Position numbers and translations under genes: made by a program
Source of the DNA: Clostridium sp. 12(A)
Lineage (GTDB): Bacteria > Bacillota > Clostridia > Lachnospirales > Lachnospiraceae
Length of the DNA stretch: 64,000 nt
NCBI GenBank assembly: GCA_000526575.1
Contig: JAGI01000002.1
Location: 1,922,001 to 1,986,000, forward strand
Direction of reading: 5' to 3'
Part shown: positions 7,215 to 61,573 of the stretch, piece after piece
How the letters are laid out: each line of letters begins with the position of its first letter
Position numbering within the stretch: the first letter of the stretch is position 1
The notes under the pieces: model-generated
Databases searched by the model: none
What the model saw: only the letters and a program-made list of their open reading frames with translations
What the model was told of the DNA's origin: nothing

Positions 7215-7226
7215 ATTAGATTTAGA

Positions 7227-7256: not shown

Positions 7257-7366
7257 CTGAGGAAAGTTGCGTTAGCAAAATCTACCGATGACACGAAAAC
7301 GCATTCTGTAGAGATTTATAATAAAAAAGCATTTTTCTATAAGAGATTTATTTTCCTTGGTCTTTA

Positions 7367-8323: not shown

Positions 8324-8341
8324 GTTCCTACTCTCCTTTTA

Positions 8342-8866: not shown

Positions 8867-8902
8867 GATCATAACCTCCTGATGTAATTTCAATTCTTTG
8901 CC

Positions 8903-8931
8903 ATTATACAAAGACACTCTCTTATTGTCAA
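8903..8931 (-). promoter_or_regulatory. Consensus sigma-A promoter of bioY-bioB
   Basis: On the minus strand TTGACA (8931-8926), 17 bases, TATAAT (8908-8903): a perfect match to both hexamers. Its -35 lies inside the inverted repeat described as a BirA operator, which explains how so strong a promoter could be held off. Confidence 0.88.
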
Positions 8932-8957
8932 CCATTTTATTGTTTTAGGTTTACAAT
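8924..8957. promoter_or_regulatory. BirA-type biotin operator
   Basis: Inverted repeat ATTGTCAACC-N14-GGTTTACAAT on the plus strand. The arms and 14-base spacing match the known BirA operator pattern (TTGTNAACC-N14..16-GGTTNACAA). It overlaps the -35 of the bioY promoter, so biotinyl-AMP-bound BirA would block transcription. birA is not in the window. Confidence 0.88.
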
Positions 8958-8981
8958 TGAACTCTCCACAAAAAACAATGC

Positions 8982-9027
8982 AAAACAGCGTCTTGCTCCG
9001 GTTTTAAGCAGAACAAAACGCTGTTTT
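8982..9027 (-). terminator. Intrinsic terminator of the rhamnose operon
   Basis: Arms AAAACAGCGT and ACGCTGTTTT with further partial pairing towards the loop. A T-rich stretch follows on the minus strand about 5 bases after the stem. Located between rhaD and the bioY promoter. Confidence 0.75.
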
Positions 9028-9067
9028 CATTATCCTTTTGGTATGGGTAAGATTTTTGGTTTAACTA

Positions 9068-9895: not shown

Positions 9896-9908
9896 GTTCT
9901 TTTTCTCC

Positions 9909-11159
9909 TTATTTCCGGTTTAACAGTACGTCTTTTTCATAAGCAGCCACTGTTTTAAACCAGTCTTCCTTAGCCGGGACTCCATTTAGCTCACAGAAAT
10001 AGTTCCACACATCTCCAATGGGATAAAGCTTTAATTCTTCCTGAAGCATCATAAGCTCCGTAAAGCTTCTGGTATTTTGAAGCTCAGCCAGTTTTTCATT
10101 TGGTAAAAGCAGTGCATTTAACAAGGCCTTCTGCATGTTTCTCATTCCAACCACCCAGGCACTGATGCGATTAATGCTGGCATCGAAAAAGTCAAGGGCT
10201 AAAAGCACACGGTCTGAGCCGCCGCGGATAATTTCTTTTGCAATTTCCTTTGTCTCATCATCAAATAAAACTACGTGGTCACTATCCCAGCGCACCGGTC
10301 GTGTTACGTGCAGGGCAACCTTGTCAAAGAATAAAAGCATGGATGAAATCTTATCTGAAACCACCTCGGTCGGATGATAATGTCCGCTGTCAAGGAGGCA
10401 GAGGATGTCATTTTTAGAGGCGTAGTTCATATAGAATTCATGGGAGCCTACGGTACAGCTTTCCATACCGATTCCAAATACCTTTGATTCCACGGCTACA
10501 AGCACCTTTGTTTTATCATACTCCATGGAAAGGATCTGGTCCAGAGAATCCTTAAGTCTTGCTCTTGGAGAGGTACGGTCAGCAGGAATGTCCTTAAATC
10601 CGTCAGGAATCCAGATATTCATGGTACAAGGGGTTCCCTGCTCTGTGGCTAAATACTCTGAAATTCGGATGCATGCTTTTACATGGTCGATCCAGAATGA
10701 GCGAATCTTAGGATCTTCGCTTGATAAGGTGGCATGCTCTGCATTGGCATGTGAGAATAATGTGGGGTTAAAATCAATGCCAATGCCCCGTTCCTTTGCA
10801 AACTCTACCCATTTTTTAAAATGCTTTGGTTCCAGCTTATCTCTGTCAGCCCATTCTCCTTCTTCAAATATGGCATAGCTGGCATGTAAGTTAATGCGGT
10901 GCTTTCCAGGAATCAAGTTTAATGCCTGATCCATATCCGCCATTAATTCCTGTGGGTTTCTGGCACGGCCCGGATAATTTCCGGTGGTCTGGATTCCTCC
11001 GGAAAGAGCGCCTGCCCCATCAAATCCAGTTACGTCATCCCCCTGCCAGCAGTGCATGGAAATGGGAATCGCCTTTAATGCACTTATAGCGGCATCGGTA
11101 TCCACACCAATCCCTTTGTAGCTTTCTTTTGCTGCCTCATATCTCTCTTTTATTGTCAT
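9909..11159 (-). CDS. rhaA: L-rhamnose isomerase
   Basis: A 416-residue TIM-barrel ketol isomerase converting L-rhamnose to L-rhamnulose. The active-site and metal-binding region reads [13 protein letters not shown] followed by [16 protein letters not shown], typical of RhaA, and the length equals that of well-known members. It lies 23 bases after rhaM in the rhamnose operon. Confidence 0.95.
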
Positions 11160-11182
11160 CGCTTTCCTTCTCCTTTTCCCTA

Positions 11183-11497
11183 TTAATCCAGATGAAATAC
11201 TGGTGTTAAGCCAACCGAAACCGGACTGTTATCCGGATTGGTCTTCATAATGTCTGCCATGAAATCCCACCATTTGCGGTTGATGGCAGTATCGGCTGAT
11301 TCAGCCCACCGCTCTTCGTCCTCAATTTCAATGTATCCGTAGAGTACGTTGGTCTCTTCGTCTAAGAAGATGGAATAATTATGGCCGCCGCACTGGCGTA
11401 TCATCTCTTTCATCTCCGGCCAGAGCATGTTATGTCTTTTTTCATATTCCTCTGCCATTCCTTCATTTAGATACATTTTAAATGATTTTCGGATCAT
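11183..11497 (-). CDS. rhaM: L-rhamnose mutarotase
   Basis: A 104-residue ferredoxin-fold-like mutarotase that interconverts the alpha and beta anomers of L-rhamnose so that the isomerase gets its preferred form. [16 protein letters not shown] and the C-terminal [11 protein letters not shown] region are typical. It lies 12 bases after rhaB, with an AGGAGG-like site before its ATG. Confidence 0.93.
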
Positions 11498-11509
11498 AAA
11501 TTTCCTCCT

Positions 11510-12946
11510 TTATTTTTTCCCTTTTTGGGGCCTGTATTCCTTTACTGTAAAAGAACGGTATACGCCTTCTCTTGCCTGCTTTAAATCGTCAAATTCATGG
11601 AACGAAAGCATCTGAGCCAGTAAGTTTCCAATGGCAGTTGCCTCTCCTGGTCCTGCATAGACGGTTCTTCCAGTCATATCTGCTGTCAGCTGGTTTAAAT
11701 ATTCCGCTTGGGAGCCGCCGCCTACCACATGAATGGCAGGATATGTTTTCCCGGTAATGGACTCTAATTCCTTGATCGTTTTTTCATAACAGACTGCCAG
11801 ACTGTTATAGATAACCGCTGAAATCTCCCCCGGTGTCTTTGGCTCCTGCTGATTGTGATTTCTGCAATACTCCCTTACTGCCTGTATCATGCTCTCCGGT
11901 GCCAGAAATACGCTGTCATTACAGTCTACGAGAGAAGAGATGGATTCCCTGGAAGCCATATCACAAAGCTGTGCAAAGGAATATTCCTCTCCTTGCCTGG
12001 AAAGCTCTTTTCTTACGGACTGAATCATCCAAAGTCCCATGATATTTTTTAAATACCGGTAACGGTAGTCATAGCCGCCCTCGTTGGTAAAATTTGCTTC
12101 CATGCTTTTGACGGAACAATCTGCTTTTAAAAGCTCTGTGCCCATGAGGGACCAGGTACCGGAGCTGATATAAAGAAGGTCTTCCATGGAACCGCCTGGG
12201 ACCACAGGAACAGCCATTACGGCTGATGCCGTATCATGAGTGGCAGGAAGCACTACCTGACAATCAAAGCCTACTTCTTCTATTATTTGAGGAGCCAGCC
12301 CGCCTGCCAGTGTTCCTGGCATGGAAAGGGGTAAAAACAGCCCCTCTGGAAGTCCCAGGCTCTGAATTAAATCATAATCCCAGGTTCCTGTCTCCGGACT
12401 CACCAGCTGTGTGGTGGTAGCATTTGTGTATTCCTGCTTTTTTACTCCGGTAAGGAGATAATGAAAATAATCCGGAATCATTAAAAATGTTTCTGCCTCT
12501 TTTAAATGCTCAGGAGTTTGTTTCTTTACTGCCATCAGCTGATAAATGGTATTAAAAATCTGCTTCTGGATTCCGGTTCTTTCATAAAGGCTTAGAAGAG
12601 GTATAGTCTTATATACTTCCTCATCCATCCCCTTTGTGCGGTCATCCCGGTATCCAACGGCTTCGGAAAGAAGCTTTCCTTCCCGGTCAAGGAGAACAAA
12701 ATCCACAGCCCAGGTATCAATGCCCATGCTCACAGGTATCTTACCTAGCTTTTTACACGCTTTCATGCCTTCTTTGATTTCTGCAAATAAGGACTCCACA
12801 TCCCAGCAAAGCCTTTCCCCCATCCGTTTCATGCCATTTTCAAAGCGGTATATCTCCTCCAGAACCATGTTTCCATCTTTTACAGTTCCAAGAATATGAC
12901 GTCCGCTGGAAGCACCAATGTCTACGGCAAGATAGTATTTCTCCAT
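11510..12946 (-). CDS. rhaB: Rhamnulokinase
   Basis: A FGGY-family sugar kinase of about 478 residues that phosphorylates L-rhamnulose at O-1. The N-terminal ATPase fold starts LAVDIGASSGRH, the substrate region has GIDTWAVDFVLLD, and the C-terminal phosphate-binding stretch is HVVGGGSQ. An upstream in-frame extension of 11 codons is possible, but the ATG at 12946 has AGGAGGGG at 5 bases and matches family N-termini. First gene of the operon; its own promoter must lie in the short gap after the terminator at 12998-13036 or overlap it. Confidence 0.95.
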   Translation of the reverse strand: MEKYYLAVDIGASSGRHILGTVKDGNMVLEEIYRFENGMKRMGERLCWDVESLFAEIKEGMKACKKLGKIPVSMGIDTWAVDFVLLDREGKLLSEAVGYRDDRTKGMDEEVYKTIPLLSLYERTGIQKQIFNTIYQLMAVKKQTPEHLKEAETFLMIPDYFHYLLTGVKKQEYTNATTTQLVSPETGTWDYDLIQSLGLPEGLFLPLSMPGTLAGGLAPQIIEEVGFDCQVVLPATHDTASAVMAVPVVPGGSMEDLLYISSGTWSLMGTELLKADCSVKSMEANFTNEGGYDYRYRYLKNIMGLWMIQSVRKELSRQGEEYSFAQLCDMASRESISSLVDCNDSVFLAPESMIQAVREYCRNHNQQEPKTPGEISAVIYNSLAVCYEKTIKELESITGKTYPAIHVVGGGSQAEYLNQLTADMTGRTVYAGPGEATAIGNLLAQMLSFHEFDDLKQAREGVYRSFTVKEYRPQKGKK

Positions 12947-12997
12947 GCTTACCCCTCCTAGTTTTCTTATTCTAATCATAGTTTATTTTTCTATAAA

Positions 12998-13036
12998 AAA
13001 TAAGGACGCTGTTTATTTAAAACAACGTCCTTATTT
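12998..13036 (-). terminator. Intrinsic terminator of the aconitase-IDH-LysR operon
   Basis: Perfect 11-bp arms AAATAAGGACG / CGTCCTTATTT. On the minus strand the stem runs into a run of T's. It sits directly after the LysR gene and only about 50 bases before rhaB. Confidence 0.85.
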
Positions 13037-13041
13037 GCACA

Positions 13042-13950
13042 TCATCGCGATGATACAATTACAAGCTTCTCTTCTATATAACGAATAAAATCTTCCAGCA
13101 TCTTTGATTTTCTCTTGTTTTTCGAATAGATAAACCATGTATTTCTAAGTACCGGAGCTCCATTTCTTTTTGTCAAGGGAGTCAGGCAAAGATCATGTTC
13201 GTTCACAAAGTTACTGGGAAGAAAACATAAAGTATACCCTAGTCCCTTGCCAATCAGTTGCCAGGCGAAATCAATAAACCCCACTTCCATACCCAAAGGG
13301 GGAGCTGTATGAAAACGCTCTTGCCACCAATCACCTAAAAGCTCCTTGGTTCGGTCATTGGTGCTGTATGCAATCCACTGCAGACCGGGAAGCTGGTCCA
13401 TATCAACCTTTTCCTTGGTAATGAGATATGCCTGATCCTCAGCAATCAGAGCTTTATTGACAGCGCCCTCATAATCACCGCGGATAAAAGCAACGTCTAC
13501 CGCTTCCTCTAACATCTTTCGGAACAGGATATTGCTTTGATCATTCACAATGTGAAAATTTACATTGGGGTGGGTTTGATTGTATTGGTATAAAACATCA
13601 GTCAGGGTATATTTACTATAGGTGTAGGAAGAGCCTATAACAATAGTCTCTTCACCGCTTTCTTTTAATTCAGCCAGTCCCCGATTGGTCTCTTTCATAA
13701 AATCCAGATATACATTTGCCTGGTTTGCCAGAAATTCGCCTTCTTTCGTAAACTCCAGGCCCTTTGGGGTTCTGTTTACAATGGTCACCTGAAATTCTGA
13801 CTCCATCTGCTTCAGCCTTTTTGTGAGGGAAGGCTGGGTCATAAATAACAGGCTGGCCACCTTTGACATATTTGGATTTTTGTAAAGCTCATACAGGATC
13901 ACCCAATCAGAATCTTTCATTGCCTTTACCTCTTTGTCCGTTTCCTCCAT
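13042..13950 (-). CDS. LysR-family transcriptional regulator
   Basis: About 302 residues. The N-terminal winged helix (NMSKVASLLFMTQPSLTKRL, with recognition helix SLTKRLKQME) is followed by a periplasmic-binding-protein-like effector domain. It is the last gene after aconitase and isocitrate dehydrogenase, 53 bases downstream, and ends just before a terminator. This arrangement suggests it controls these citrate-branch genes, in the manner known for CcpC of Bacillus, which is also a LysR protein acting on aconitase. Starts at 13950 (ATG) or 13920 (ATG with GAGG upstream) are both possible. The rhamnose operon lies beyond and is an alternative target. Confidence 0.85.
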   Translation of the reverse strand: MEETDKEVKAMKDSDWVILYELYKNPNMSKVASLLFMTQPSLTKRLKQMESEFQVTIVNRTPKGLEFTKEGEFLANQANVYLDFMKETNRGLAELKESGEETIVIGSSYTYSKYTLTDVLYQYNQTHPNVNFHIVNDQSNILFRKMLEEAVDVAFIRGDYEGAVNKALIAEDQAYLITKEKVDMDQLPGLQWIAYSTNDRTKELLGDWWQERFHTAPPLGMEVGFIDFAWQLIGKGLGYTLCFLPSNFVNEHDLCLTPLTKRNGAPVLRNTWFIYSKNKRKSKMLEDFIRYIEEKLVIVSSR

Positions 13951-33644: not shown

Positions 33645-34397
33645 TTACCTAATTTTTCCATCTAGTAAATGCTTTGTGATCTCTCTTTTGTATTCCAGGA
33701 ATTCTTCAGACAAGTGAAACTCTACGCTTCTGGGCTTTGGCTCTTTGATCAGAATCTCTCTGGTTATCTTTCCGGGAGACCCGGTCAAAAGGCAGATACG
33801 ATCCGATAAAAGAATGGCTTCGTCAATATCGTGGGTGATAAAAAGAGTGGATAGCTTAATCTCCTCCATCACCTTTAAGTACCATTCATGCATGGCGTGC
33901 TTGGTAAGCATATCAAGGGCTGAGAATGGTTCATCCAAAAGGGCAATGGGCCTTTTAAATAAATATGTCCTTAAAAGAGCTGCTCTTTGCCGCATACCGC
34001 CGGAGAGCTGGGAGGGATATTTTTTTTCGGTTCCTTCTAAGCCAAACAGCTCAAAGTATCCGGCTGCTTTTTCTCTGGCCTCCTTTTTTCTCATTCCGGA
34101 AAGCAATAGGGGAAGAGCCACGTTATCAACCACCGTTCGATATGGAAGGAGCAGGTCCTTTTGAAGCATGTAGCTGACGTTACCTGGTTTCCCTGTAACC
34201 TCTCTTTCATCAATAAAAACGTGGCCCTCCTCCGGCAGGCTGAGTCCTGCGAGAATCTGAAACAGGGTGGTTTTTCCTCCTCCGCTTGCTCCAAGAAGGG
34301 AAACCAGCTCCCCTTCCTTAAGTTCCAGAGATACACCTTCTAAAATCGTTCTTCCTTCAAAAGACTTTTTTATGCCTTCCGCCTTTAAATGTACCAT
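33645..34397 (-). CDS. ABC transporter ATPase for thiamine precursor (ThiZ-like)
   Basis: A 250-residue ATPase of the nitrate/taurine/thiamine-precursor class. It has Walker A GASGGGKTT, signature LSGGMRQR and Walker B IALLDEPFSALD. Last gene of the riboswitch-controlled operon, 15 bases after the binding-protein gene, with GGAGG before the ATG. It drives uptake together with the permease and lipoprotein encoded upstream. Confidence 0.9.
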   Translation of the reverse strand: MVHLKAEGIKKSFEGRTILEGVSLELKEGELVSLLGASGGGKTTLFQILAGLSLPEEGHVFIDEREVTGKPGNVSYMLQKDLLLPYRTVVDNVALPLLLSGMRKKEAREKAAGYFELFGLEGTEKKYPSQLSGGMRQRAALLRTYLFKRPIALLDEPFSALDMLTKHAMHEWYLKVMEEIKLSTLFITHDIDEAILLSDRICLLTGSPGKITREILIKEPKPRSVEFHLSEEFLEYKREITKHLLDGKIR

Positions 34398-34412
34398 ATA
34401 AGCCTCCTGATT

Positions 34413-35435
34413 TTACTGTGGCAGGTAGTCGTTGGAAAAGCCAGTGTTTTCCGGTATTGCAGGATTAGAAAGTCCATTGTCGTTAAGCCAGTTGTAAAAT
34501 CCGTTCCAACGCTTGGGGTCCATATATCCCCATACATCCACTCCAGCCTGATATTTATCAGCAAGGTATTTCTGGCTTGCCAGGACAAGGCCTTTATCAA
34601 GCTCTGGAGCTGCCTTACATAATATTTCTGCTGCTTCCTCCGGGTTCTTTGCTGCGTCTTCATACCCTTTGCTAACGGCACCAAGAAACGCTCTTGCCGT
34701 TTCCGGATCATTCTTTAAGAAATCATTACCGGCTATCATAACAGGTGTATAATAATCAAACACCGGATTTAAATCTGCAAATTGAAAATAATCGGTATCC
34801 AGTTTTTCTTCTTCCATCTTAACGCCTGCCCAGCCATAGAAAATCCAGATGGCATCCACTGACTTTGTTTTTAAAGCAGAAACTTCATCGGTCACTGTAC
34901 TTGGAATCATCTCTATTTTGGAGAAATCTCCGCCATCCGCTTCCACCACATCTTTTATCATGGCTTTTTCCACTGGATTATCCCAGGTAGCATATTTTTT
35001 CCCTTCCAGTCCTTTGGGAGTATCCATGCCTTCCCCTTTTCTGGAGATAATTCCAGAAGTATTATGCTGAATCACAGCTGCCACAGCTGTAATCGGTAAG
35101 GCATTATCCCCAACCAGTGCCGGGGCCATGGTATCCTGAAATGCCATGCCAAATTCCGCTTTTCCTGAGGCGACTAAAACGGCTGCCCCATCTTCCGGTG
35201 GCTGTACAATATCAACAGAAAGTCCGGCATCTTTAAAATATCCTTTTTCCTGTGCAATATAAAGGCCTGTATGATTGGTGTTAGGCGTCCAATCAAGAAC
35301 AAATGTTACTTTCTTTAAATTCTCTGCTTCTGTATTACCTGTCTGCGTTTCCTGCTTCTTACAGGCACTTAAGGATGCAGTAAGTGCCGCTGCAAGTAAA
35401 ACTGCTGTCCCTGCTTTTCTTATGATTTTTTTCAT
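34413..35435 (-). CDS. ABC transporter substrate-binding lipoprotein, NMT1/THI5-like (ThiY-like)
   Basis: About 340 residues with a lipoprotein signal (AALTASLSAC, lipidated Cys near residue 24). The NMT1/THI5-like fold has the family signature VLDWTPNTNHTGLYIAQEKG and then GMAFQDTMAP. Relatives bind the thiamine pyrimidine precursors HMP or formylaminopyrimidine. The ATG at 35435 sits 4 bases after GGAGGAAA. An in-frame extension would overlap the permease gene and is unlikely. Confidence 0.9.
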   Translation of the reverse strand: MKKIIRKAGTAVLLAAALTASLSACKKQETQTGNTEAENLKKVTFVLDWTPNTNHTGLYIAQEKGYFKDAGLSVDIVQPPEDGAAVLVASGKAEFGMAFQDTMAPALVGDNALPITAVAAVIQHNTSGIISRKGEGMDTPKGLEGKKYATWDNPVEKAMIKDVVEADGGDFSKIEMIPSTVTDEVSALKTKSVDAIWIFYGWAGVKMEEEKLDTDYFQFADLNPVFDYYTPVMIAGNDFLKNDPETARAFLGAVSKGYEDAAKNPEEAAEILCKAAPELDKGLVLASQKYLADKYQAGVDVWGYMDPKRWNGFYNWLNDNGLSNPAIPENTGFSNDYLPQ

Positions 35436-35457
35436 TGTTTCCTCCAAATTAATTCTG

Positions 35458-36219
35458 TTAGATTTCTTCCCATGGCATACATTTTTTCGAGAGGTAGTCA
35501 ACCCCCTTCATGAGAAGAAGGCTGATGACTGATATGAGAATAATCACTGCGAACATTTTATCAAAGGCAAAGGCCTTTTTCACCCGGGTCATATAGACGC
35601 CAAGGCCGCCAAATCCCCCCAGCCATTCGGAGATGACCGCACCTACTACTGCATAGGATGCGGAAATCCTCAGGCTGGAAAAGAACTGCCCCATGGCTCC
35701 CGGAAGCTTGATATAACGAAAAATACTTACATTTCCTGCGCCCATGGACCGAAGCAAGGTGACTTCATCCGGATCAACGGATTGAAAGCCGGAAAGGAGT
35801 CCGATGGCAACAGGAAAAAATGTGGTCAGCACAATCAGTATGATCTTTGGTGTCATTTCATAACCAAACCACAACACTAAGAGAGGGGCTAAGGCCACCG
35901 TAGGAATGGTCTGGGTAAGTATAATCACCGGATAAATTGCCCGGTAAAGTCCATGAAAATGATCCATGATAACAGCGATAAAAAATCCCAGTACCACTCC
36001 AAGAAAAAGTCCTGCAAATGCCTCTTTAAGCGTTATCTTCCCATGCTCCATCAGTGCCGGAAACTCCGTGATCAGTGCACGTCCCACGCTGGCGGGAGAC
36101 GGCAGAAGGTAGGCTTCTATGATACCGGCGGAACATATCCCCTGCCACAGGAGCAAAAGCCCCAATACCGCGGAACAGGACCAAAGCTTATTGGTGATGC
36201 TTTGTGACTTTCTTATCAA
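35458..36219 (-). CDS. ABC transporter permease for thiamine precursor (ThiX-like)
   Basis: A 253-residue inner-membrane permease with about six spans and the cytoplasmic EAA-type loop (VTLLRSMGAGNVSIFRYIKLPGA). The likely start is TTG at 36219, with GGTGAGG 9 bases upstream, overlapping the thiamine-binding gene by 32 bases. Partner of the ATPase and lipoprotein downstream. Confidence 0.88.
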   Translation of the reverse strand: MIRKSQSITNKLWSCSAVLGLLLLWQGICSAGIIEAYLLPSPASVGRALITEFPALMEHGKITLKEAFAGLFLGVVLGFFIAVIMDHFHGLYRAIYPVIILTQTIPTVALAPLLVLWFGYEMTPKIILIVLTTFFPVAIGLLSGFQSVDPDEVTLLRSMGAGNVSIFRYIKLPGAMGQFFSSLRISASYAVVGAVISEWLGGFGGLGVYMTRVKKAFAFDKMFAVIILISVISLLLMKGVDYLSKKCMPWEEI

Positions 36220-36565: not shown

Positions 36566-36579
36566 TTAACAGGCAGAGC

Positions 36580-36672
36580 CTGAAAGTTTCCTACGCTGGC
36601 ATTATCCAGATCAGGTTACAGGGTTTAAAACAAGACGGTTTTATCTCAGCCGGACTTCATCCAGCACCCCTT
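36580..36672 (-). ncRNA. TPP riboswitch (THI element)
   Basis: The minus strand carries the conserved THI blocks: GGGGTGCTGGATGAAGTCC, GGCTGAGAT, ACCCTGTAACCTGATCTGG and ATGCCAGCGTAGGAAA. Thiamine pyrophosphate binding would favour the terminator at 36537-36565 and switch off the transporter genes. Together with its promoter and the dyad at 36801 it fills the 338-base gap between the DUF77 gene and the Fur-family gene. Confidence 0.95.
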
Positions 36673-36688
36673 TTTAATTTTCTTTGAA

Positions 36689-51103: not shown

Positions 51104-51170
51104 GCATTTTTCAAATATATTGCATAATTTTCCATTTTCATGTATAAATAATCCTTCAATGTCCTGGTTC

Positions 51171-53548: not shown

Positions 53549-54748
53549 ATGTATTGTGTAAAAAAAATCAACGACGATCTATTCTGGGTCGGGGGAAGTG
53601 ACCGCCGTCTGGCTCTGTTCGAAAATGCTTACCCGATTCCAAGAGGGATTTCCTATAATTCTTATGTCCTGCTTGACGAAAAGACGGTTCTTTTTGATAC
53701 CGTTGACCGTGCCATTACCGGACAATTTTTGGAAAATGTGGAAGCTGTGCTTGATGGAAGGGATTTGGATTATATTATTGTCAATCATATGGAGCCAGAT
53801 CACTGTGCTACCTTAGGAGAGATTGTAAGAAGATATCCAGATGTAAAGGTCGTATGCAATGCAAAGACCGTTCCCATCATTAACCAGTTTTATGAATTCG
53901 GTGTTGATTCCAGAGCAATTATTGTAAAGGAAGGAGATACCTTAAGTACCGGTAAGCATAACTTTACCTTTTATCTGGCTCCCATGGTCCATTGGCCGGA
54001 GGTTATGGTTACTTTTGATACAACAGATAAGATCCTTTTTTCAGCCGATGCCTTCGGTACCTTTGGCGCGATGAACGGGAATTTATTTGCAGATGAATTG
54101 AATTTTGAGCGGGACTGGCTTGATGATTCCAGAAGATATTATTCCAATATCGTAGGCAAATACGGTCCGTCTGCCATGACGCTATTAAAGAAGGTAGCGC
54201 CACTTGACATTCAGATTCTCTGCCCGCTTCACGGTCCGGTCTGGCGCTCCGACATCAACTGGTACGTGGATAAGTACTTGACCTGGAGCAGCTATGAGCC
54301 AGAGGATAAGGCCGTTATGATTGTTTATGGTTCCATTTACGGCAACACAGAGAATGCTGCTAATATCCTTGCAAGCCGTCTGGCAGACAGAGGCGTGAAG
54401 AACATTGTTGTTTATGACGTATCCGTCACACATGCCTCAATTCTCATTTCAGAAGCGTTCCGGTGCAGTCATCTGGTATTTGCCTCTGCCACCTATAACA
54501 GCGGTATTTTCAGCAACATGGAGCACCTTCTCATGGATATGAAGGCCCATAACGTGCAGAACCGTACCGTAGCTCTTATGGAGAATGGTACCTGGGGTAT
54601 TACAGCAGGGAAAAAGATGGCTGAAATCATCTCCGGCATGAAAAATATGACCATTCTTGATGATATGGTCACCATCAAATCTTCCGTCAAAGAAGATCAG
54701 CTTGTGGACATCGCAGCTCTTGCTGATGCCATTGTAAAGACCTTATAA
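53549..54748 (+). CDS. Flavodiiron protein (FprA, A-type flavoprotein)
   Basis: A 399-residue cytoplasmic enzyme reducing O2 to water (or NO to N2O). The N-terminal metallo-beta-lactamase-like domain has iron ligands H80, E82, D84, H85 (NHMEPDHC), VHWPE, SADAFG and LHGPVW. The C-terminal flavodoxin domain binds FMN (IVYGSIYGNTENAA). No fused rubredoxin, so electrons come from a separate donor. Plus-strand single gene, with AAAGGAAGG before the ATG. It protects an anaerobe from oxygen. Confidence 0.94.
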   Translation: MYCVKKINDDLFWVGGSDRRLALFENAYPIPRGISYNSYVLLDEKTVLFDTVDRAITGQFLENVEAVLDGRDLDYIIVNHMEPDHCATLGEIVRRYPDVKVVCNAKTVPIINQFYEFGVDSRAIIVKEGDTLSTGKHNFTFYLAPMVHWPEVMVTFDTTDKILFSADAFGTFGAMNGNLFADELNFERDWLDDSRRYYSNIVGKYGPSAMTLLKKVAPLDIQILCPLHGPVWRSDINWYVDKYLTWSSYEPEDKAVMIVYGSIYGNTENAANILASRLADRGVKNIVVYDVSVTHASILISEAFRCSHLVFASATYNSGIFSNMEHLLMDMKAHNVQNRTVALMENGTWGITAGKKMAEIISGMKNMTILDDMVTIKSSVKEDQLVDIAALADAIVKTL

Positions 54749-54760
54749 TTCTTAACATAC

Positions 54761-54812
54761 AAAAATCCCTCCCAGGATACAGCTCATTTAAGCTGTTCCC
54801 AGGAGGGTTTTT
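54761..54812. terminator. Bidirectional terminator between the flavodiiron gene and agrB
   Basis: A-run, CCCTCC..GGAGGG and ACAGCT..AGCTGT paired arms, T-run: a long imperfect hairpin with A/T tails usable on both strands. The last codons of agrB and its stop lie inside it. Confidence 0.75.
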
Positions 54813-55368
54813 GATTTCTTATCTTTTGAAGCACCAGTAAGAATGCAGCGGCATAGATTCCCCATATGATGAGACCTCCAATGTTTATGTAATGAATCAT
54901 AGTAAATATCATACAGCCTGTATTTGCCAGAATCAGGATAATTCTTGCTTTTTTCCTGTAGTATATCTTTTCTACCTCATCCAGTCTCTTATTCTCATTA
55001 TCAGCCGGGCTTAAGAAAAAAATAATACCGTCGCATAAGGCCAATAATCCCCACAACAAGAACTGATTGATTTCCATCTGAGATAACAAAAGAATGATTG
55101 AAATGTAACAGCAGGAAAACAGATAACATCCTGTTTTTGTCTTTGCATGATATCCCCCTGCACTTCTTCTTAATGGTATGAATACGCATCCAATCAGGAT
55201 TAACTCCGGGACCAAATGAAAGCATATTGCAATCCATAAATATGAAATACAATGAGCGATCTTTAAGATCAGACACTCCATTCCAAATTTATAAAGCTCT
55301 CCATCTTCCTCCGAAATAATCTGATGGAATACCAGCTTTTTGGTAAACCATATTTCCCATGGTATCAT
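54784..55368 (-). CDS. agrB: AgrB-family peptide-processing membrane protease
   Basis: A 194-residue membrane protein with about six hydrophobic segments. The AgrB signature LRRSAGGYHAKTKTGC carries catalytic His74 and Cys81. It cuts the AgrD precursor and forms the thiolactone ring of the signal peptide. It lies 12 bases downstream of agrD. The matching sensor and regulator are encoded 4 kb away on the same strand. Confidence 0.93.
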   Translation of the reverse strand: MIPWEIWFTKKLVFHQIISEEDGELYKFGMECLILKIAHCISYLWIAICFHLVPELILIGCVFIPLRRSAGGYHAKTKTGCYLFSCCYISIILLLSQMEINQFLLWGLLALCDGIIFFLSPADNENKRLDEVEKIYYRKKARIILILANTGCMIFTMIHYINIGGLIIWGIYAAAFLLVLQKIRNQKPSWEQLK

Positions 55369-55380
55369 CCGGAAATCACC

Positions 55381-55527
55381 TTAAAATTTTCTTAGTTTCT
55401 TTGCATTTTCAGGTAGTTTTGGCTGGTAGCCAATGAAAAAACAGGAACTGTTTGCTTCTGTTTTTGCAGAACTTAAGATTACTTTTGATGCCAGTTTGAG
55501 TGACAATTTCTTTAACTCATCCTTCAT
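55381..55527 (-). CDS. agrD: AgrD cyclic-peptide signal precursor
   Basis: A 48-residue peptide. Its amphipathic N-terminus (MKDELKKLSLKLASKVILSS) is followed by the signal core SSCFFIGYQPKLPE and a charged tail. By analogy with known AgrD, a thiolactone from Cys29 to about Gly33 is likely, with cutting before the YQPKLPE recognition part. The exact ends are inferred, not shown. The ATG has GGAGG 7 bases upstream and lies 96 bases after ctfB. A longer frame lacks a ribosome site. Confidence 0.9.
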   Translation of the reverse strand: MKDELKKLSLKLASKVILSSAKTEANSSCFFIGYQPKLPENAKKLRKF

Positions 55528-55598
55528 TTTGACGCCTCCATTCTTTTTTCTTATTAAGAATATATGACTTCTTCCCAGCATTATTCAAAACCTAATAC

Positions 55599-55610
55599 AA
55601 TCTTAAGATT
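55599..55610. promoter_or_regulatory. Palindrome in the ctfB-agrD gap
   Basis: AATCTTAAGATT, a perfect 12-base palindrome with the TTAAG core common in AgrA-type sites. No good -35/-10 pair was found here, so agrDB may be read from the acetone operon or from a weak local promoter. Confidence 0.3.
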
Positions 55611-55623
55611 TTGACCGTGTATC

Positions 55624-56280
55624 TTAAACTTCAATGACTTTTAGACTGGGAGAAATGATCAAAGGAGCTTCTGTCTGATTTTTTACATCTTCTACAGAAA
55701 TACCAGGAGCAATTTCCTTTAACACCAGACCTTCATCTGGTATAACATCAATAACTGCCATATCTGTCACAATGGTCTTAGCCACATGAGCTGCAGTGAG
55801 AGGAAGTCTGCATTTACGAAGTATCTTCGGTGATCCGTTCTTATTGACGTGCTCCATAGCCAGAATGACTTTTTTGGCGCCTACCACCAGATCCATGGCT
55901 CCGCCCATTCCCGGTACCTTTTTGCCTGGAATCATCCAGTTGGCAACATTTCCTTCTGAATCAACCTCCAGTGCTCCTAACACCGTAACATCCACGTGGC
56001 CTCCCCGTATGATGCTAAAGGAGAACGAGCTGTCAAAGAAGCTGGCCCCCTTTACCGTGGTCACGTAATTTCCACCTGCATCAATACAGTTAGGGCTCTC
56101 ATTCCCCTCTCCGGCATTTGGTCCAACGCCAAGGATTCCATTTTCCGCTTCCAGCATGATATGAACATCTTCCGGTATGTAATTTGCCACCATGGTAGGC
56201 ATTCCTATCCCAAGGTTGACGACATCACCATCTTTTAATTCCTTTGCAACTCGTTTCGCAATAAATTCTCTCTTATCCAT
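55624..56280 (-). CDS. ctfB: Acetoacetyl-CoA:acetate/butyrate CoA-transferase, subunit B
   Basis: A 218-residue class I CoA-transferase beta subunit with catalytic Glu46 in LEAENGILGVGP. With subunit A it moves CoA from acetoacetyl-CoA to acetate or butyrate, freeing acetoacetate for the decarboxylase encoded upstream. Its ATG overlaps the ctfA stop by one base (TAATG), so the subunits are made 1:1. Confidence 0.9.
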   Translation of the reverse strand: MDKREFIAKRVAKELKDGDVVNLGIGMPTMVANYIPEDVHIMLEAENGILGVGPNAGEGNESPNCIDAGGNYVTTVKGASFFDSSFSFSIIRGGHVDVTVLGALEVDSEGNVANWMIPGKKVPGMGGAMDLVVGAKKVILAMEHVNKNGSPKILRKCRLPLTAAHVAKTIVTDMAVIDVIPDEGLVLKEIAPGISVEDVKNQTEAPLIISPSLKVIEV

Positions 56281-56939
56281 TATAATCCCACCTTTACGAT
56301 TGCATTTACAAAGATTCCAGGAACATTGATATGATTCGGCTCCAGCGTACCTGTCTTTACCACCTCATCTACTTCAGCAACTACATAATCAGCCGCAGTA
56401 GCCATGACAATATTAAAATTACGGGAGGAACCTCTGATGATTAGGTTTCCTTCTTCATCGGCCTTTTCTGCTTTTATAAAGGCCACATTTGCCTTTAAGG
56501 GCATCTCAAGAAGATATTCTTTTCCCTCAATCTCCAGCTTCTTTTTTCCTTCCTCCACTACGGTACCTACACCAACAGGAGTTAAAACACCTCCAAGTCC
56601 TGCACCGCCGGAACGGATTTTCTCTGCCAGGGTTCCCTGAGGAAACAGCTTTACTTCTGCTTCTCCTGTCATAAGAAGTCTTCCTGTCTCCGGATTGGCG
56701 CCGATATAGGAAGCAAAGATACGGCTGACTCTTCCGCTTTTCACCAGCTGATAGATGGATAATTCTTTGGTTCCTGTATCATTGGATATGATGGTCAAAT
56801 CCTTGGCTGGATTGGTGTTTAACAGAGTGTTCACCAGATGCTCCGGATGGCCTCCTGCCAAAAATCCGCCCACCATAATGGCATCTCCGTCTTTTACTTT
56901 TTCTACTGCTTCTCTGGCTGTCATCAATTTACTTTTCAT
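56280..56939 (-). CDS. ctfA: Acetoacetyl-CoA:acetate/butyrate CoA-transferase, subunit A
   Basis: A 219-residue alpha subunit with the GGFLAGGHPEHLVNTL motif near residue 24 and GGAGLGGVLTPVGVGT in the middle. It pairs with CtfB. It lies 13 bases after the acetoacetate decarboxylase gene, the usual acetone cluster. Relatives include butyrate- and acetate-acetoacetate transferases; the adc neighbour supports acetone production. Confidence 0.9.
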   Translation of the reverse strand: MKSKLMTAREAVEKVKDGDAIMVGGFLAGGHPEHLVNTLLNTNPAKDLTIISNDTGTKELSIYQLVKSGRVSRIFASYIGANPETGRLLMTGEAEVKLFPQGTLAEKIRSGGAGLGGVLTPVGVGTVVEEGKKKLEIEGKEYLLEMPLKANVAFIKAEKADEEGNLIIRGSSRNFNIVMATAADYVVAEVDEVVKTGTLEPNHINVPGIFVNAIVKVGL

Positions 56940-56952
56940 GATCGATACCTCC

Positions 56953-57699
56953 TTAGCTTTCTTCTAAGTAATCATACATAACGCTTCCATAGGGAAGGGT
57001 CAAATCTGCGATAAAATGCTTTCCTTCCAGGCATTTCTTTATGGGAAGGTCTGCGACCGGTGCATTGACATGAGGCGTCAGGCTTAGTCTTGCAGGCCCT
57101 GACCAGGCACCTTTCACTGTAATGTCTTCCAGTTCATAGGATACCAGCTGAGCAATCTTAGGACTTCCGTCCACGTCGGGAATCAGCTTTAAGTTCACCT
57201 GGGTCTTTCCTATGGTTTTAGCAACTGCCTGATGATCAAGTGTGTTATATTTAAAGGGCATAGTTCCCATAGCCACCAAAACGTTATTATAAATCAGAGT
57301 ACCGGTTAGGGTTTCTGTTTCCTCAACCTTTAGAGAGGGGTGACCCCATTTTTTAGGAAATCCCCAGATTTCCCGGCCTCCAAGAATGGCGGGACCATTG
57401 TTTAAATACATCTGAGAAATAAAGTTACAAGGTTCTCCGTGATAGAGGCAGGGAATGACGACTCCGCTTTCTTCGTAGGAACCTAAACCTGAGGAATCCG
57501 GCATTTTAATCCATTCATAGACCACTGTATTGCTCCCGTTCGGCTCCAGAGGCTCCGGAACAGCCTGGCGTATGGTTTCCGGGTCGGATTCATAGGTAAC
57601 GGTAAAGAATTCACGGTTTATGAACCGGCAGGGGGGACGGCCGTAGCTGGCACTTGCAGCCGGCATGGATTGTAAGGCTAAAATATCTTCTTTCTTCAT
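56953..57699 (-). CDS. adc: Acetoacetate decarboxylase
   Basis: About 248 residues. The Schiff-base lysine motif REIWGFPKKWGHP places Lys116/Lys117 as in Clostridium acetobutylicum Adc, and the length agrees with that enzyme. It turns acetoacetate into acetone and CO2, drawing CtfAB forward. The ATG at 57699 is 8 bases after AAAGGA; another ATG at 57705 is too close to the site. It lies between thl and ctfA. Confidence 0.95.
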   Translation of the reverse strand: MKKEDILALQSMPAASASYGRPPCRFINREFFTVTYESDPETIRQAVPEPLEPNGSNTVVYEWIKMPDSSGLGSYEESGVVIPCLYHGEPCNFISQMYLNNGPAILGGREIWGFPKKWGHPSLKVEETETLTGTLIYNNVLVAMGTMPFKYNTLDHQAVAKTIGKTQVNLKLIPDVDGSPKIAQLVSYELEDITVKGAWSGPARLSLTPHVNAPVADLPIKKCLEGKHFIADLTLPYGSVMYDYLEES

Positions 57700-57729
57700 A
57701 CACATCTTCCTTTCTTTGTATTATGTATG

Positions 57730-58914
57730 TTAAATGGCGGCGTTTTCTACCAGCATGGCAATTCCCATGCCTCCTCCGATACATAAGGAAGCAACTCCAT
57801 AATGAGCGGATCTGCGCGTCATTTCATGAATGAGAGTGACCAGTATTCTGGCTCCGCTGGCCCCTAAGGGATGGCCGATTGCAATGGCTCCTCCATTGAC
57901 ATTGATTTTTGATGCGGGTATTTCCAGTTCTCTTGTGGCAGCCACAGACTGAGAAGCAAATGCTTCATTGATTTCAAAAAGGTCAATATCCCCTACGGTA
58001 AGTCCCTGTTTTTTCAGTAAGGTGTCTACTGCCTTTAGTGGTCCCATTCCCATGTATGCAGGATCAAGCCCCACCAGGGAATACCCCTTAATATAAGCTG
58101 CCGGTTTTAACCCATGCTCCCTGCATGCCTCGTCTGATGCTACAAGCATGGCTGCTGCGCCATCACTGATGGGGGAGGCATTACCAGCTGTGACAGTTCC
58201 ATCTGGCCGGAATACAGTTCTTAAGGTGGATAGCTTTTCTTTTGTGGTATCCACTCTCACGTGCTCATCTTCGTTAAAGAGGATTTCTTCCTTCTTCTTT
58301 TTGACGGTTACTGGTACGATTTCTCCGTCAAATACGTGATTCTTCTGTGCTTCTGCTGCTTTTTTATTGCTCTCATAAGCAAATTCATCCTGTTCCTGTC
58401 TTGTTACGTGATATTTTTCAGCCACATTTTCGGCGGTAAGACCCATATGATAATCGTTAATGGCACAGGTAAGGCCATCTCCCACCAGGCTATCTACCAG
58501 CTCACCGCTTCCAAGACGGTATCCGTTTCTTGCATTTCTCAAAAGGTAGGGAGCATTGCTCATATTCTCCATTCCACCTGCCAACATTATGCTCCCCTGT
58601 TCTGCCAGGATGGAATTGTAAGCAAGAGCTACTGCATGAAGGCCGGAGCCGCACACGGTATTGATGGTTGATGCCGGTACATTCACTGGGATTCCTGCTT
58701 TTATTGCAGCCTGACGGGCCGGGTTCTGACCATTGCCAGCCTGAAGGACATTGCCCATATATACTTCATTAATGAAAGAACTATTTACATTGCTTTGATT
58801 CAAACACGCTTTTATAACGGTTGAACCGAGTTCCGTGGCACTTAGGGTGGAAAGGGTACCATTAAAGGATCCAACTGCAGTTCTTAAAGGACTTACTAAC
58901 GCTATTTTTTTCAT
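57730..58914 (-). CDS. thl: Acetyl-CoA C-acetyltransferase (thiolase)
   Basis: About 394 residues of the biosynthetic thiolase type: acylated Cys88 (NTVCGSGLH), NEAFASQS, GAIAIGHPLGASGAR and the second catalytic Cys in ASLCIGGGMG. It condenses two acetyl-CoA to acetoacetyl-CoA, the first step toward acetone or butyrate. First gene of the acetone operon; start ATG 58914 is preferred over 58920 on spacing from AAAGGA. Confidence 0.95.
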   Translation of the reverse strand: MKKIALVSPLRTAVGSFNGTLSTLSATELGSTVIKACLNQSNVNSSFINEVYMGNVLQAGNGQNPARQAAIKAGIPVNVPASTINTVCGSGLHAVALAYNSILAEQGSIMLAGGMENMSNAPYLLRNARNGYRLGSGELVDSLVGDGLTCAINDYHMGLTAENVAEKYHVTRQEQDEFAYESNKKAAEAQKNHVFDGEIVPVTVKKKKEEILFNEDEHVRVDTTKEKLSTLRTVFRPDGTVTAGNASPISDGAAAMLVASDEACREHGLKPAAYIKGYSLVGLDPAYMGMGPLKAVDTLLKKQGLTVGDIDLFEINEAFASQSVAATRELEIPASKINVNGGAIAIGHPLGASGARILVTLIHEMTRRSAHYGVASLCIGGGMGIAMLVENAAI

Positions 58915-59054
58915 AATCATTCATTCCTTTCATTTATTCGTTTGTCAGTTACCAAGATGAAACAATGATTTCAAATGTGAGACTTCGATTCAAAAATAAG
59001 TGATGTAGAATAGTTATTTTTGCTCCTTTCTGTTGTGGATTGAATTACAAACGT

Positions 59055-59084
59055 ATTTTAACTACTCTTAAAGTTTGATTTCAA
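59055..59084 (-). promoter_or_regulatory. Possible promoter of the acetone operon
   Basis: Minus strand TTGAAA, 18 bases, TAAAAT, about 140 bases before the thl start. The leader is long. No clear Spo0A box (TGTCGAA) or LytTR direct repeat was found at it. Confidence 0.4.
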
Positions 59085-59131
59085 TACAAGTGGCATAACT
59101 TACAGTTTTTGTTGTATGACTGACAGAAAAA

Positions 59132-59154
59132 GGAGCATATAAAGCATCTGCTCC
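59132..59154 (-). terminator. Terminator upstream of the acetone operon
   Basis: Stem GGAGCA / TGCTCC with an 11-base loop and five T's on the minus strand. It would separate transcripts from agrCA and the gap region from the thl operon. Confidence 0.65.
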
Positions 59155-59510
59155 CTAAAATTTTGATTTTAAGTTCTTAACAATAAATTGGAATCATATA
59201 CTAAAAATCGGCCTGATATGCTCCGGATTTTGATTCTATATAGCTATCATTAAACCCTAAGCATATGATTCAGTCTGGGGAATGGGAAACCTTTTTTATG
59301 TTTTCCCATGGACGAACTAAAAGGAAGAATAATTAAGAACATTGACTATGAGAATTGTAAATTGAATCTTTGTTGCATCAAATTTCACAAATTTTTAAAA
59401 CACAAATAAGCCCTGTCATTATTGAGATCAGGGCTGACGTTAGGGAATCTTCCACAAATAGTGACAGGTTGAAAGCTCTTTAAAATCATTCATAAGAATG
59501 AAATCCTGTG

Positions 59511-60821
59511 TTACAAATTAAAAATAATTTTACAGCTGAATTTTTTATTTACTTCCTCTAAAACCATGCTGCCATCATACTTTTTTATGATATTTTCTAC
59601 ATTAAGCAGACCGATACCATGATTTTTACCCTTTCTTGATACGGGCTTTCCCAGATACCACTTTTCAATGGGCATGGTACGGTTGGTGATGTTAATAACA
59701 ATGAATTCATTGTATTTGTCCAGCTTCATATCTATGAATCTGTTGTTCGGTACCATGTCGCACGCCTCGATTGCATTATCCAGCAGATTTCCAAAAACAG
59801 TGGTAACTTCTATGGGTTCCATAAAGCTAAGATCAACAGCCCCGATTTCTAAGTTAAATTCAATGGAATGAAGGCAAGCTATTCGTTTCTTATCATTGAG
59901 CAATACGTTTAAGATTGGGTTGTTGGTGTAATCCTCCAGGGAGAGAGGCATGAGCATCTGACCGATTTCCCTGGCATAGGTTATAGCCGTATCATGTTCC
60001 TTTGCCTCATACAGGGATTCAATCAGGTTCAAATGTTTATTGACATCATGGAGAATTTTAATGGATTCATTGTATTTCTCTTCCTGGTCTTCGTAGAACT
60101 CATATTGAAGGGTTGACTGCTGCTCCAAAAGCTTTAGTTTTATCTTTAGCTGGCTGTTTTCCTCCACGAATCTGGCAAAATAAGAAAAATAAAGATCTGC
60201 AATCAAAATGCACCCCATATTAACGAGAATCAATATGTGGTCTTTCTGGCTGTTTACCTTGGATATGACAAGAAAGATAACAGCTAAATTGGCTATACTG
60301 TATAAGATAACAATAATTTCGATGAGACATTGGGTCCTGTTAAACGTCCGGCCTGCTTCTTCTTTCCAAAGCTTTGCTATGATCTGATAATAAGAAATCA
60401 GTACAAACAATTTGGAAAAGGTGATTTCCATGCTTTTGGCCATAATTGGCTCTACGTTATGTATTTGAAACTTCCAAAAGATATAGTCTAAAACTTCAAC
60501 ACCAACTGCCTCGCATATGGATAGAATTAATATTAGTACGGTAACATCTACTAACCGGTGTATCACCTTTTTATTGATATGATGAAACAGCAAAAGATTT
60601 ACAGTGCCAGGAAGAACGATCCAGCTTAAGATATTTATGATGGGATTATTTAATAAGTTAAGACATACAAGGGCAATAAATACCCCTGTTTTTACAAAGA
60701 AATATAGGCAACGCTTTTGATAGATTCGCTCATTTCTTTCTTCTATGAATTGAAATACAATAACAATGTTGACCAGACATGAAATGATGGATCCATATAT
60801 AAAAATAATGTAACTTTCCAT
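59511..60821 (-). CDS. agrC: AgrC-like sensor histidine kinase (GHKL type)
   Basis: A 436-residue membrane kinase. Six or so N-terminal spans (about 1-205) form the peptide-binding part, followed by a coiled segment, the phospho-acceptor His region (ILHDVNKHLNLIESLY), N-box NLLDNAIEAC and G-box GIGLLNVENIIKKYDG. It lies 8 bases downstream of agrA. It should sense the cyclic peptide made from the agrD/agrB genes 4 kb away. Confidence 0.92.
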   Translation of the reverse strand: MESYIIFIYGSIISCLVNIVIVFQFIEERNERIYQKRCLYFFVKTGVFIALVCLNLLNNPIINILSWIVLPGTVNLLLFHHINKKVIHRLVDVTVLILILSICEAVGVEVLDYIFWKFQIHNVEPIMAKSMEITFSKLFVLISYYQIIAKLWKEEAGRTFNRTQCLIEIIVILYSIANLAVIFLVISKVNSQKDHILILVNMGCILIADLYFSYFARFVEENSQLKIKLKLLEQQSTLQYEFYEDQEEKYNESIKILHDVNKHLNLIESLYEAKEHDTAITYAREIGQMLMPLSLEDYTNNPILNVLLNDKKRIACLHSIEFNLEIGAVDLSFMEPIEVTTVFGNLLDNAIEACDMVPNNRFIDMKLDKYNEFIVINITNRTMPIEKWYLGKPVSRKGKNHGIGLLNVENIIKKYDGSMVLEEVNKKFSCKIIFNL

Positions 60822-60829
60822 CTCTTCTC

Positions 60830-61573
60830 CTAAATCGAATTCTGTATAAATGTATTTAATTTTTTTCTAAACTCTGCGGATCGTTTCTGTGAAACAGGTA
60901 TGATATCATTATTATTTAAAAAAACTTCGTAGCCTTTTATCTTTTTCACATGACGTAAATTAACTAAAAAACACTGGTGGCAGGTTTCGAAATTATGTAA
61001 CTGCATCTTGTCTGCCAGATCTTTCATTTTATCTTTAAAGAAATATTCTTCCTTTTCCAGTTTGATTTTAATCTTTCTATTAAAATATTCAAAATAAAAG
61101 ATATCATCTACTTCAAAATCCTTGATTCTGCTTTCCAGTTCCCCTTTGTCCGTTATCTCCATAATCTCAAATGCCACGGTTTCTTTATCTTCGTGTTCTT
61201 CCTGAATGCAGGATAAGATTTCATCCAGCTGGCGGTCTATCTTATCCTTTGTAACAGGCTTTACTAAATATGCAAATGCATGAACCCGGTTCACAGCCTG
61301 TTTGCAAAACTGCTTGTAGCTGGTGGTATAAATTATTTTTAACCCTCTGTTAGATTCCCTGATTTTCGTTCCTACCTCTATTCCATTCATTCCGCCTAAT
61401 GCAATATCAAGAAATAATAAATCAAACGTCTCACTGGATTCAAGCAGCTCTTCTCCTGAGCAATACTTTTTGATGTCATAAGAAAATGGGCTCTGGCTCA
61501 TGTAACCATTCACCAAAGTTTCTAATTTATCCGTATCCTTCCTGTCATCGTCACAAATAGCTATTGAAAGCAT
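60830..61573 (-). CDS. agrA: AgrA-like LytTR response regulator
   Basis: A 247-residue protein: receiver domain with Asp56 (DLLFLDIALGG) and Lys (YLVKPVTK), then a C-terminal LytTR DNA-binding domain with NFETCHQCFLVNLRHVKKI. It lies upstream of agrC, with GGAGG before its ATG. LytTR proteins bind direct repeats of 9 bases 12 apart. Targets likely include the acetone and agrBD units on the same strand, but no convincing repeat was found. Confidence 0.92.
   Translation of the reverse strand: MLSIAICDDDRKDTDKLETLVNGYMSQSPFSYDIKKYCSGEELLESSETFDLLFLDIALGGMNGIEVGTKIRESNRGLKIIYTTSYKQFCKQAVNRVHAFAYLVKPVTKDKIDRQLDEILSCIQEEHEDKETVAFEIMEITDKGELESRIKDFEVDDIFYFEYFNRKIKIKLEKEEYFFKDKMKDLADKMQLHNFETCHQCFLVNLRHVKKIKGYEVFLNNNDIIPVSQKRSAEFRKKLNTFIQNSI

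Follow-up and report, generated by a model that had tools for sequence, protein, structure and literature searches.

We examined an eight-gene locus of Clostridium sp. 12(A), a member of the Lachnospiraceae, in which the genes of an Agr quorum-sensing system enclose an acetone operon. The locus lies in a 64,000-nt stretch of contig JAGI01000002.1 (assembly GCA_000526575.1, positions 1,922,001 to 1,986,000), referred to here as the window, from a genome of 4.6 Mb in three contigs. The genus of this genome is called Lacrimispora below, and L and G numbers denote loci and genomes, respectively. All gene coordinates are positions of the whole window on the minus strand, and domain calls are matches to Pfam and NCBIfam profiles. 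Read along the minus strand, the order is agrA, agrC, terminator-like hairpins, a promoter, thl, adc, ctfA, ctfB, agrD, agrB, and a strong terminator. The initial annotation had placed the eight genes in this order on one strand, and this was borne out, with family matches for all of them.

The enzyme genes form a complete acetone-operon set, in which a thiolase, a CoA-transferase pair, and an acetoacetate decarboxylase (ADC) are found together. The product of thl (57730..58920) is an acetyl-CoA acetyltransferase (Thiolase_N, 2.2e-98), and its best solved relative, 4n44, is an enzyme of the same name (1.4e-134). The adc gene (56953..57705) matches PF06314 at 9.3e-71, and its product aligns with the PDB entries 3bgt (1.1e-70) and 3bh2 (8.5e-62), with the motif WGFPKK retained in both alignments. 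The CoA-transferase subunits A and B are encoded by ctfA (56280..56939; CoA_trans, 4e-60) and ctfB (55624..56280; CoA_trans, 2.4e-47), which score above the cut-offs of TIGR02429 and TIGR02428, respectively. Together, thl, adc, and ctfAB constitute the textbook route from acetyl-CoA to acetone.

The set of Agr proteins is also complete. AgrA (60830..61573) is a response regulator with a receiver domain (Response_reg, 1.3e-13) and a LytTR DNA-binding domain (5.5e-18), and it matched the NCBIfam AgrA model at 6.8e-12, under the curated cut-off of that model. AgrC (59511..60821) is a sensor histidine kinase with a GHKL ATPase domain (HATPase_c_5, 2.1e-22); excluding L037, the closest relative, its identity to other loci was 48-77% in the sensor half and 73-87% in the kinase half. 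The agrD gene (55381..55527; TIGR04223, 2.6e-12, above cut-off) encodes a cyclic peptide precursor with the core SSCFFIGYQPKLPE; its start is best set at 55527, where an ATG downstream of GGAGG gives 48 amino acids. AgrB (54784..55368; PF04647, 6.7e-36) is a membrane peptidase expected to process AgrD, and its His74 and Cys81, which we take to be the catalytic residues, were invariant in 14 of 14 aligned sequences. In AgrD, C32, G36-Y37-Q38-P39, and P42 were invariant in all 21 aligned sequences, giving a Cys core and a QPxxP tail. The core read CFFIGYQP in 17 of the 18 aligned acetone loci and CFFLGYQP in the remaining one (Lachnotalea, L011), while three aligned relatives with contiguous agr genes had CICIGYQP. 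Presuming that the ring can be modeled on other clostridial AgrD peptides, it would be C-F-F-I-G, and the signal is predicted to be of the CFFIG type. Because the acetone operon separates agrAC from agrDB, the four agr genes are not side by side, as they commonly though not always are in Agr loci; we treat this as a variant Agr layout and not as a reason to exclude the locus from Agr systems.

To determine how widely this arrangement occurs, genome contigs were scanned for ADC, which confirmed 358 relatives, of which the best 80 were kept; every locus of this set was found with adc as the query, so that the presence of adc reflects the choice of query. Among these best 80 of 358 loci, 16 carried agr genes at an identity of at least 40% and the other 64 did not; four of the 16 (L015, L026, L028, L036) are cut by contig ends. 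In a subset of 50 adc loci among the 80, none had an agr match of at least 40%, and a single agrA match, at 31%, was seen in L039. The adc gene of the window shared 98% identity with its counterpart in [Clostridium] aerotolerans DSM 5434 (L037). In total, the block was present in 17 loci from different genomes including the window, and in two further loci (L015 and L036) cut by contig ends; the gene-order comparison across relatives proposed with the initial annotation thus showed an arrangement conserved well beyond a single genome. Twelve loci share the layout of the window, A-C-thl-adc-ctfA-ctfB-D-B (layout 1: the window, L008, L009, L011, L019, L020, L026, L027, L028, L034, L037, L128), with broken frames in L128 and with part or all of agrA missing at the contig end in L026 and L028. 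Three loci have the order A-C-D-thl-adc-ctfA-ctfB-B (layout 2: L012, L021, L023), and L025 and L117, described below, resemble them. The division into an upstream sensor half and a downstream peptide half, as originally proposed, therefore describes layout 1 and does not extend to these five loci, in which agrD precedes thl, or adc where thl is absent.

The genes flanking the block fall into several sets. One set is common to the window, L037, L008, L009, and L034; a second to L019, L020, L026, L027, L028, L036, and L128; and a third, on the upstream side only, to L021 and L023. L011, L012, L025, and L117 each have at most one flanking gene in common with any other locus. The block stays together while its surroundings change, and its recurrence in 17 loci with several unrelated flank sets led us to reject a chance arrangement in one genome.

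Across genomes, adc and the closely related AgrC occurred together. Within the genus, adc was found in 16 of 25 genomes, and an AgrC orthologue at 63-100% identity was found in exactly those 16; among the nine genomes lacking adc, four had an AgrC at 43-44% and five had none at E 1e-40. In 397 genomes of the family, adc at 79-100% identity was found in four and AgrC at 64-100% in the same four, while two other family genomes with an ADC at 37-38% had no nearby match to the agr proteins. An order-level AgrC search matched four of 344 genomes at E 1e-100, all of this genus. In a class sample of 391 genomes, only three others had an ADC at E 1e-20 (L150-L152, 42-44% identity); these loci contain ctfAB and showed no match to the agr proteins of the window within about 20 kb, a search that more distant agr genes could escape. 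Four metagenome-assembled genomes labeled Hungatella or Paenibacillaceae carry a Lacrimispora-type block (L009, L015, L019, L036), and the genus search counts them in the genus as G010, G016, G013, and G015.

We further analyzed the transcription signals of the locus. The 590-nt gap between agrC and thl contains one clear and one weak terminator-like hairpin in addition to the conserved promoter. The clear hairpin lies 3' of agrC (59398..59440; -13.8 kcal/mol, z -3.4, equaled by 1 of 200 shuffles) and has a T-rich tail by reading. The second (59126..59175; GGGAGC..GCTCC followed by TTTTT; -10.6 kcal/mol) abuts the promoter repeats; with a z of -1.9 it is weak by itself, and visual inspection showed similar hairpins in the corresponding position in L011, L023, and L034. 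The strong terminator after agrB (54764..54813; the stretch 54758-54818 folds at -33.8 kcal/mol, z -8.4) has the 3' end of the agrB coding sequence as one of its arms. This terminator also faces a convergent flavodiiron-type gene (53549-54748). A generic scan of the window found five terminator-like sites against 5.5 in shuffles, which is the shuffle level, and no known Rfam RNA in the thl leader, or elsewhere inside the block, reached its gathering score in the window, L011, L012, L023, or L117.

From thl to agrB, the gaps in the window are 24, 13, -1, 87, and 12 nt. Lengths given for the ctfB-agrD gap end where the agrD query begins, 9 nt upstream of the ATG; counted to the ATG, the 87 nt of the window become 96 nt. 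In the 13 layout 1 loci measured (L036 included), the ctfB-agrD gap was 77-103 nt, with no terminator-like fold in any of them, and the agrD-agrB gap was 12-13 nt. In layout 2, the ctfB-agrB gap was 15-32 nt in three of the four loci; that of L023 was 188 nt long and contained a weak fold. Transcription is thus predicted to continue from thl to agrB, and agrAC and the acetone-agrDB operon are likely separate units. The hairpins and the conserved promoter between agrC and thl led us to reject the view that one transcript spanning agrA to agrB is the main product; some read-through from agrAC into thl is possible. For the same reason, the earlier description of an array ending at one terminator is accurate for thl to agrB and not for the array as a whole.

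The operon promoter (59055..59084) consists of a -35 box TTGAAA, an 18-nt spacer, and a -10 box TAAAAT, agreeing with 10 of 12 consensus bases, and is conserved across loci. Directly upstream lie the tandem half-sites CTGTCAGTCATAC and CTGTAAGTTATGC (59094..59126), 21 bp apart, which form a putative AgrA binding site with a counterpart in 18 of 18 loci. In the element common to the loci after agrC, half-sites of the types CTGT(A/C)AGTTATAC and CTGTAAGTTATG, in this order, lie 20 or 21 bp apart and are followed by TTGAAA and a -10 box of the type AAAAT. This pattern fitted all 18 inspected loci with 0-5 substitutions, a count that is descriptive only because the pattern was derived from the same loci; L036, on a short contig, does not include the promoter region. 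The gene behind the element is thl in layout 1 and agrD in layout 2. Near-duplicates (L020, L026, L128, L015, L037) were omitted from the column consensus only, and an alignment of 12 of the 18 loci, excluding the window and L037, had 29 invariant columns of 83. A generic promoter scan of the window gave 22 sites against a shuffle mean of 20.6.

We scanned the 25 genomes of the genus with R1, a sequence-only model of the promoter built without the window and L037, and scored 150 candidates per genome. Each of the 16 genomes with adc had a single strong R1 match, at 54-73 bits, and the nine adc-less genomes had none; the best other match listed in any of the 25 was 20.7 bits. Eight of the 16 matched genomes are outside the model, and five of these (G007, G015, G016, G022, G024) belong to the group of L019, which is itself in the model. 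The element of the window was matched at 59049-59130 with 58.5 bits. Under stricter filters, three of 338 family genomes were matched, all with adc. A locus-level scan of 43 sources, a subset of all loci, found no R1 match above 11 bits in 13 Paenibacillus loci, three class-level loci, four contiguous relatives, or six other agr loci of this genome. Downstream of agrC in two distant agrAC loci, R1 scored 13.5 bits (L121) and 12.3 bits (L122); these matches may be due to chance, because R1 also scored 12.2 bits at 51106 in the window and 12.1 bits at a second site in L121. A wide AgrA regulon with this type of site was rejected, because the genome contains one copy of the 33-bp half-site pair at up to three mismatches and no second strong R1 site; a looser regulon is possible.

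We also considered the likely product of the operon. The adc gene adjoins ctfAB in all 16 agr-bearing loci (ctfA alone in L015, at the contig end). In L117, a secondary alcohol dehydrogenase gene, recognized by eye, lies beside the operon on the other strand. Relatives of this dehydrogenase at 86-88% identity were present in eight of the 16 genus members with adc, including this one, and in none of the nine others, which had only relatives at 47-55%. The solved relatives of the copy in this genome are NADP-dependent alcohol, secondary-alcohol, or isopropanol dehydrogenases. The operon product is presumably acetone or isopropanol, and in some species the pathway may end in isopropanol.

Two groups of loci each resemble one part of the block. 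In Paenibacillus, 13 loci have the same four enzyme genes in the same order (thl-adc-ctfA-ctfB) with an ADC 75-82% identical, but none of the 13 had a match to the agr proteins or to R1. The closest Agr relatives in the genus are the contiguous agrA-C-D-B loci L131-L134 (AgrC 43-44%, AgrD 46-53%), which differ in having no enzyme genes inside, a CICIG core in the three aligned, and no R1 match above 11 bits. A plausible origin is that an acetone operon without agr genes supplied the enzyme genes, which came to lie behind the promoter used for autoinduction by an agrA-C-D-B locus. Phylogenetic trees rooted with six of the 13 Paenibacillus loci as outgroup were concordant between the enzymes and the Agr proteins on the main Lacrimispora groups. 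One conflict concerned L034 (Clostridium sp. HBUAS56010), which fell into the L027 group in the enzyme tree (support 97) and into the window group in the Agr tree (support 100), suggesting an exchange of one part or recombination within the block. The nodes deciding which layout is older had supports of 20-21 (enzyme tree) and 43-51 (Agr tree).

Based on these data, we consider it probable that the locus is an Agr system whose AgrA-driven autoinduction operon carries the acetone pathway as a passenger, with agrAC as a separate unit. The observed basis of this interpretation is the gene order, the two conserved layouts, the co-occurrence, the short gaps free of folds in layout 1, the hairpin after agrC, and the one strong promoter match per genome. 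In this model, AgrC would sense the cyclic peptide produced from AgrD by AgrB, and phosphorylated AgrA would bind the pair of direct half-sites adjoining the -35 box of a single promoter, switching on thl-adc-ctfA-ctfB-agrD-agrB. The acetone enzymes and new signal would then be made from one transcript in a positive feedback loop, which would turn acetone formation into a sharp, self-amplifying switch at high signal, presumably triggered by cell density. Because the promoter stands before thl where agrD is late and before agrD where agrD is early, agrD and the enzymes are always downstream of it; the same holds for agrB except in L117. Control by cell density and coupling of signal production to the solvent operon had initially been offered as alternatives. 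They do not compete, and the anatomy supports both, as agrD and agrB belong to a short-gap acetone operon with a single conserved promoter built like an AgrA-driven one. From the sequence, we infer a regulatory link between Agr and the acetone genes.

Several observations weigh against this interpretation. L025 is a layout 2 locus without thl, in which agrD precedes adc, and L117 (G368, 5838-13423) has the order A-C-D-thl-adc-ctfA-ctfB with no agrB in the block, the three agrB genes of G368 being elsewhere, next to other agrC genes. G368, whose site is in the R1 model, is missing from the matches in the 338-genome scan, which may or may not have covered it. Weak terminator-like folds occur in two layout 2 gaps, namely agrD-thl of L012 (327 nt) and ctfB-agrB of L023. 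In the window, R1 had no match before agrA, the match at 51106 being at chance level. The half-site pair was equaled in 170 of 1,000 shuffles of a 120-nt excerpt of the window, and the best unrestricted repeat pair was a different one in 11 of 18 loci; the case for the putative half-sites is thus one of conservation and not of single-sequence strength. A repeat noted by eye in the contiguous relatives was not outstanding either, the best pair lying elsewhere, and was equaled in 1,988 of 2,000 shuffles for L132 and 283 of 2,000 for L131. Finally, loss of agr in C. acetobutylicum leaves final solvent levels as they were, and agrC mutants formed more solvent at 48 h (PMC10301443).

Three other explanations of the locus were considered. 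The arrangement would reflect mere co-inheritance, with no control of acetone by the peptide, if an agr locus had received the acetone operon in a single event and the block had since persisted through descent and transfer. The concordant trees would allow one founding event, and other agrAC loci contain unrelated inserts, such as the group II intron maturase gene of L120. However, the promoter repeats precede whichever gene comes first in the operon, the block is kept in three common flank contexts and in four loci sharing at most one flanking gene, and adc and an AgrC at 63-100% identity were never found apart in the 25 genomes of the genus, and we regard this explanation as improbable. Alternatively, the Agr link may be real while the enzymes serve acetoacetate or butyrate metabolism through the CoA-transferase instead of acetone formation. 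CtfAB do match broad 3-oxoacid and acetate CoA-transferase families, eight of the 16 adc genomes are without a close secondary alcohol dehydrogenase, and the literature matches listed contain no product data for these species. Given that adc stands beside ctfAB in all 16 agr-bearing loci, although adc was the query, and that the thl, adc, and ctfAB genes complete the route to acetone, a role other than acetone formation seems unlikely.

The remaining explanation concerns the signal genes themselves. If agrDB had a promoter of their own in the ctfB-agrD gap, acetone formation would be controlled by density without feedback through the operon. An Agr system requires some basal signal, and this gap of 77-103 nt holds a TATAAT-like stretch, seen by eye, in several layout 1 loci. 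In the window, however, it contains only TATTAG with no -35 box visible by eye; in layout 2, agrD lies directly behind the conserved promoter with no intervening gene, and the distance from ctfB to agrB is 15-32 nt in three of four loci. A separate agrDB promoter replacing the feedback therefore has, in our estimation, a low probability.

Among known systems, Agr of Staphylococcus aureus (agrBDCA, with the AgrA-driven promoters P2 and P3) is similar in all four protein types. Its tandem half-sites are about 21 bp apart and close to the -35 box, as are the putative half-sites here. The order differs, being A-C-[enzymes]-D-B or A-C-D-[enzymes]-B in the loci described here, whose sensor genes are apparently outside the autoinduced operon and whose output is a metabolic pathway in the same operon instead of an RNAIII-type regulator. 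A further similarity, predicted from the sequence for the loci described here, is that the signal genes of S. aureus are under their own regulator in a positive feedback (PMC8748961). C. acetobutylicum is likewise a solvent-forming clostridium with Agr and an Agr-controlled gene, the lanM-like CA_C0082, downstream of agrCA; its Agr differs in acting on granulose and sporulation, with final solvent levels unchanged (PMC10301443).

The statement in the initial annotation that the four agr genes of known loci are adjacent is too strong, as the two agr loci of C. autoethanogenum are incomplete and lie apart (PMC8748961). In all six further agrB loci of this genome (L135-L140), however, agrA, agrC, and agrB are neighbors with no operon between them, agrB being divergent from agrAC in L139 and L140. 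In other clostridia, C. beijerinckii NRRL B-598 transcribes three agr clusters with an unknown target (PMC6362236), the order agrB-agrD-resE occurs in C. pasteurianum and others (PMC5367854), and an AgrD-type pentapeptide of C. thermocellum is not part of an apparent agr operon (PMC5322536). Cyclic lactone autoinducers are common in solvent-forming Clostridium genomes, the passages on them stating no placement (PMC11063209). Among the literature matches listed, covered by titles and abstract openings and with most subscription papers outside their scope, none described an acetone operon within an agr locus.

These results bear on how clostridia switch to solvent formation. In its introduction, PMC8748961 attributes a part in solventogenesis to the RRNPP and Agr systems, and, judging from passages of this paper and PMC10301443, peptide control of the clostridial solvent switch has been argued from mutant phenotypes and is unsettled between them. 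In the loci described here, a single operon with one promoter appears to contain both the acetone pathway and the signal genes throughout a group of species, making the link directly testable, and the promoter would offer an autoinducible tool for solvent work in anaerobes. More tentatively, and with considerable doubt, the block may be a transferable quorum-gated fermentation cassette in which commitment to acetone is a bistable community decision, the near-identical core (CFFIG or CFFLG) letting different Lachnospiraceae switch solvents together. If so, Agr loci would be sockets for metabolic or secreted cargo (compare L122).

Additional features were observed in more distant agr loci and elsewhere in the window. 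L122 (9312-14039), whose AgrC is a distant relative (36%), has the order agrD, a 453-aa protein, a 273-aa protein, and agrB, and is thereby the second example of cargo enclosed by agrD and agrB; neither protein had a Pfam match at 0.001, and the 453-aa protein has a signal-peptide-like start by eye. The group II intron maturase gene of L120 (10977-12326) lies between agrC and agrD. In L125 (2554-10140, minus strand), a 2528-aa frame begins as an AgrC-like kinase and runs into RHS repeats, representing either a fusion or an assembly artifact. Finally, the window contains a thiamine pyrophosphate riboswitch at 36570-36681 on the minus strand (69.4 bits), upstream on the same strand of genes that by eye resemble those of an ABC transporter (33645-36219).

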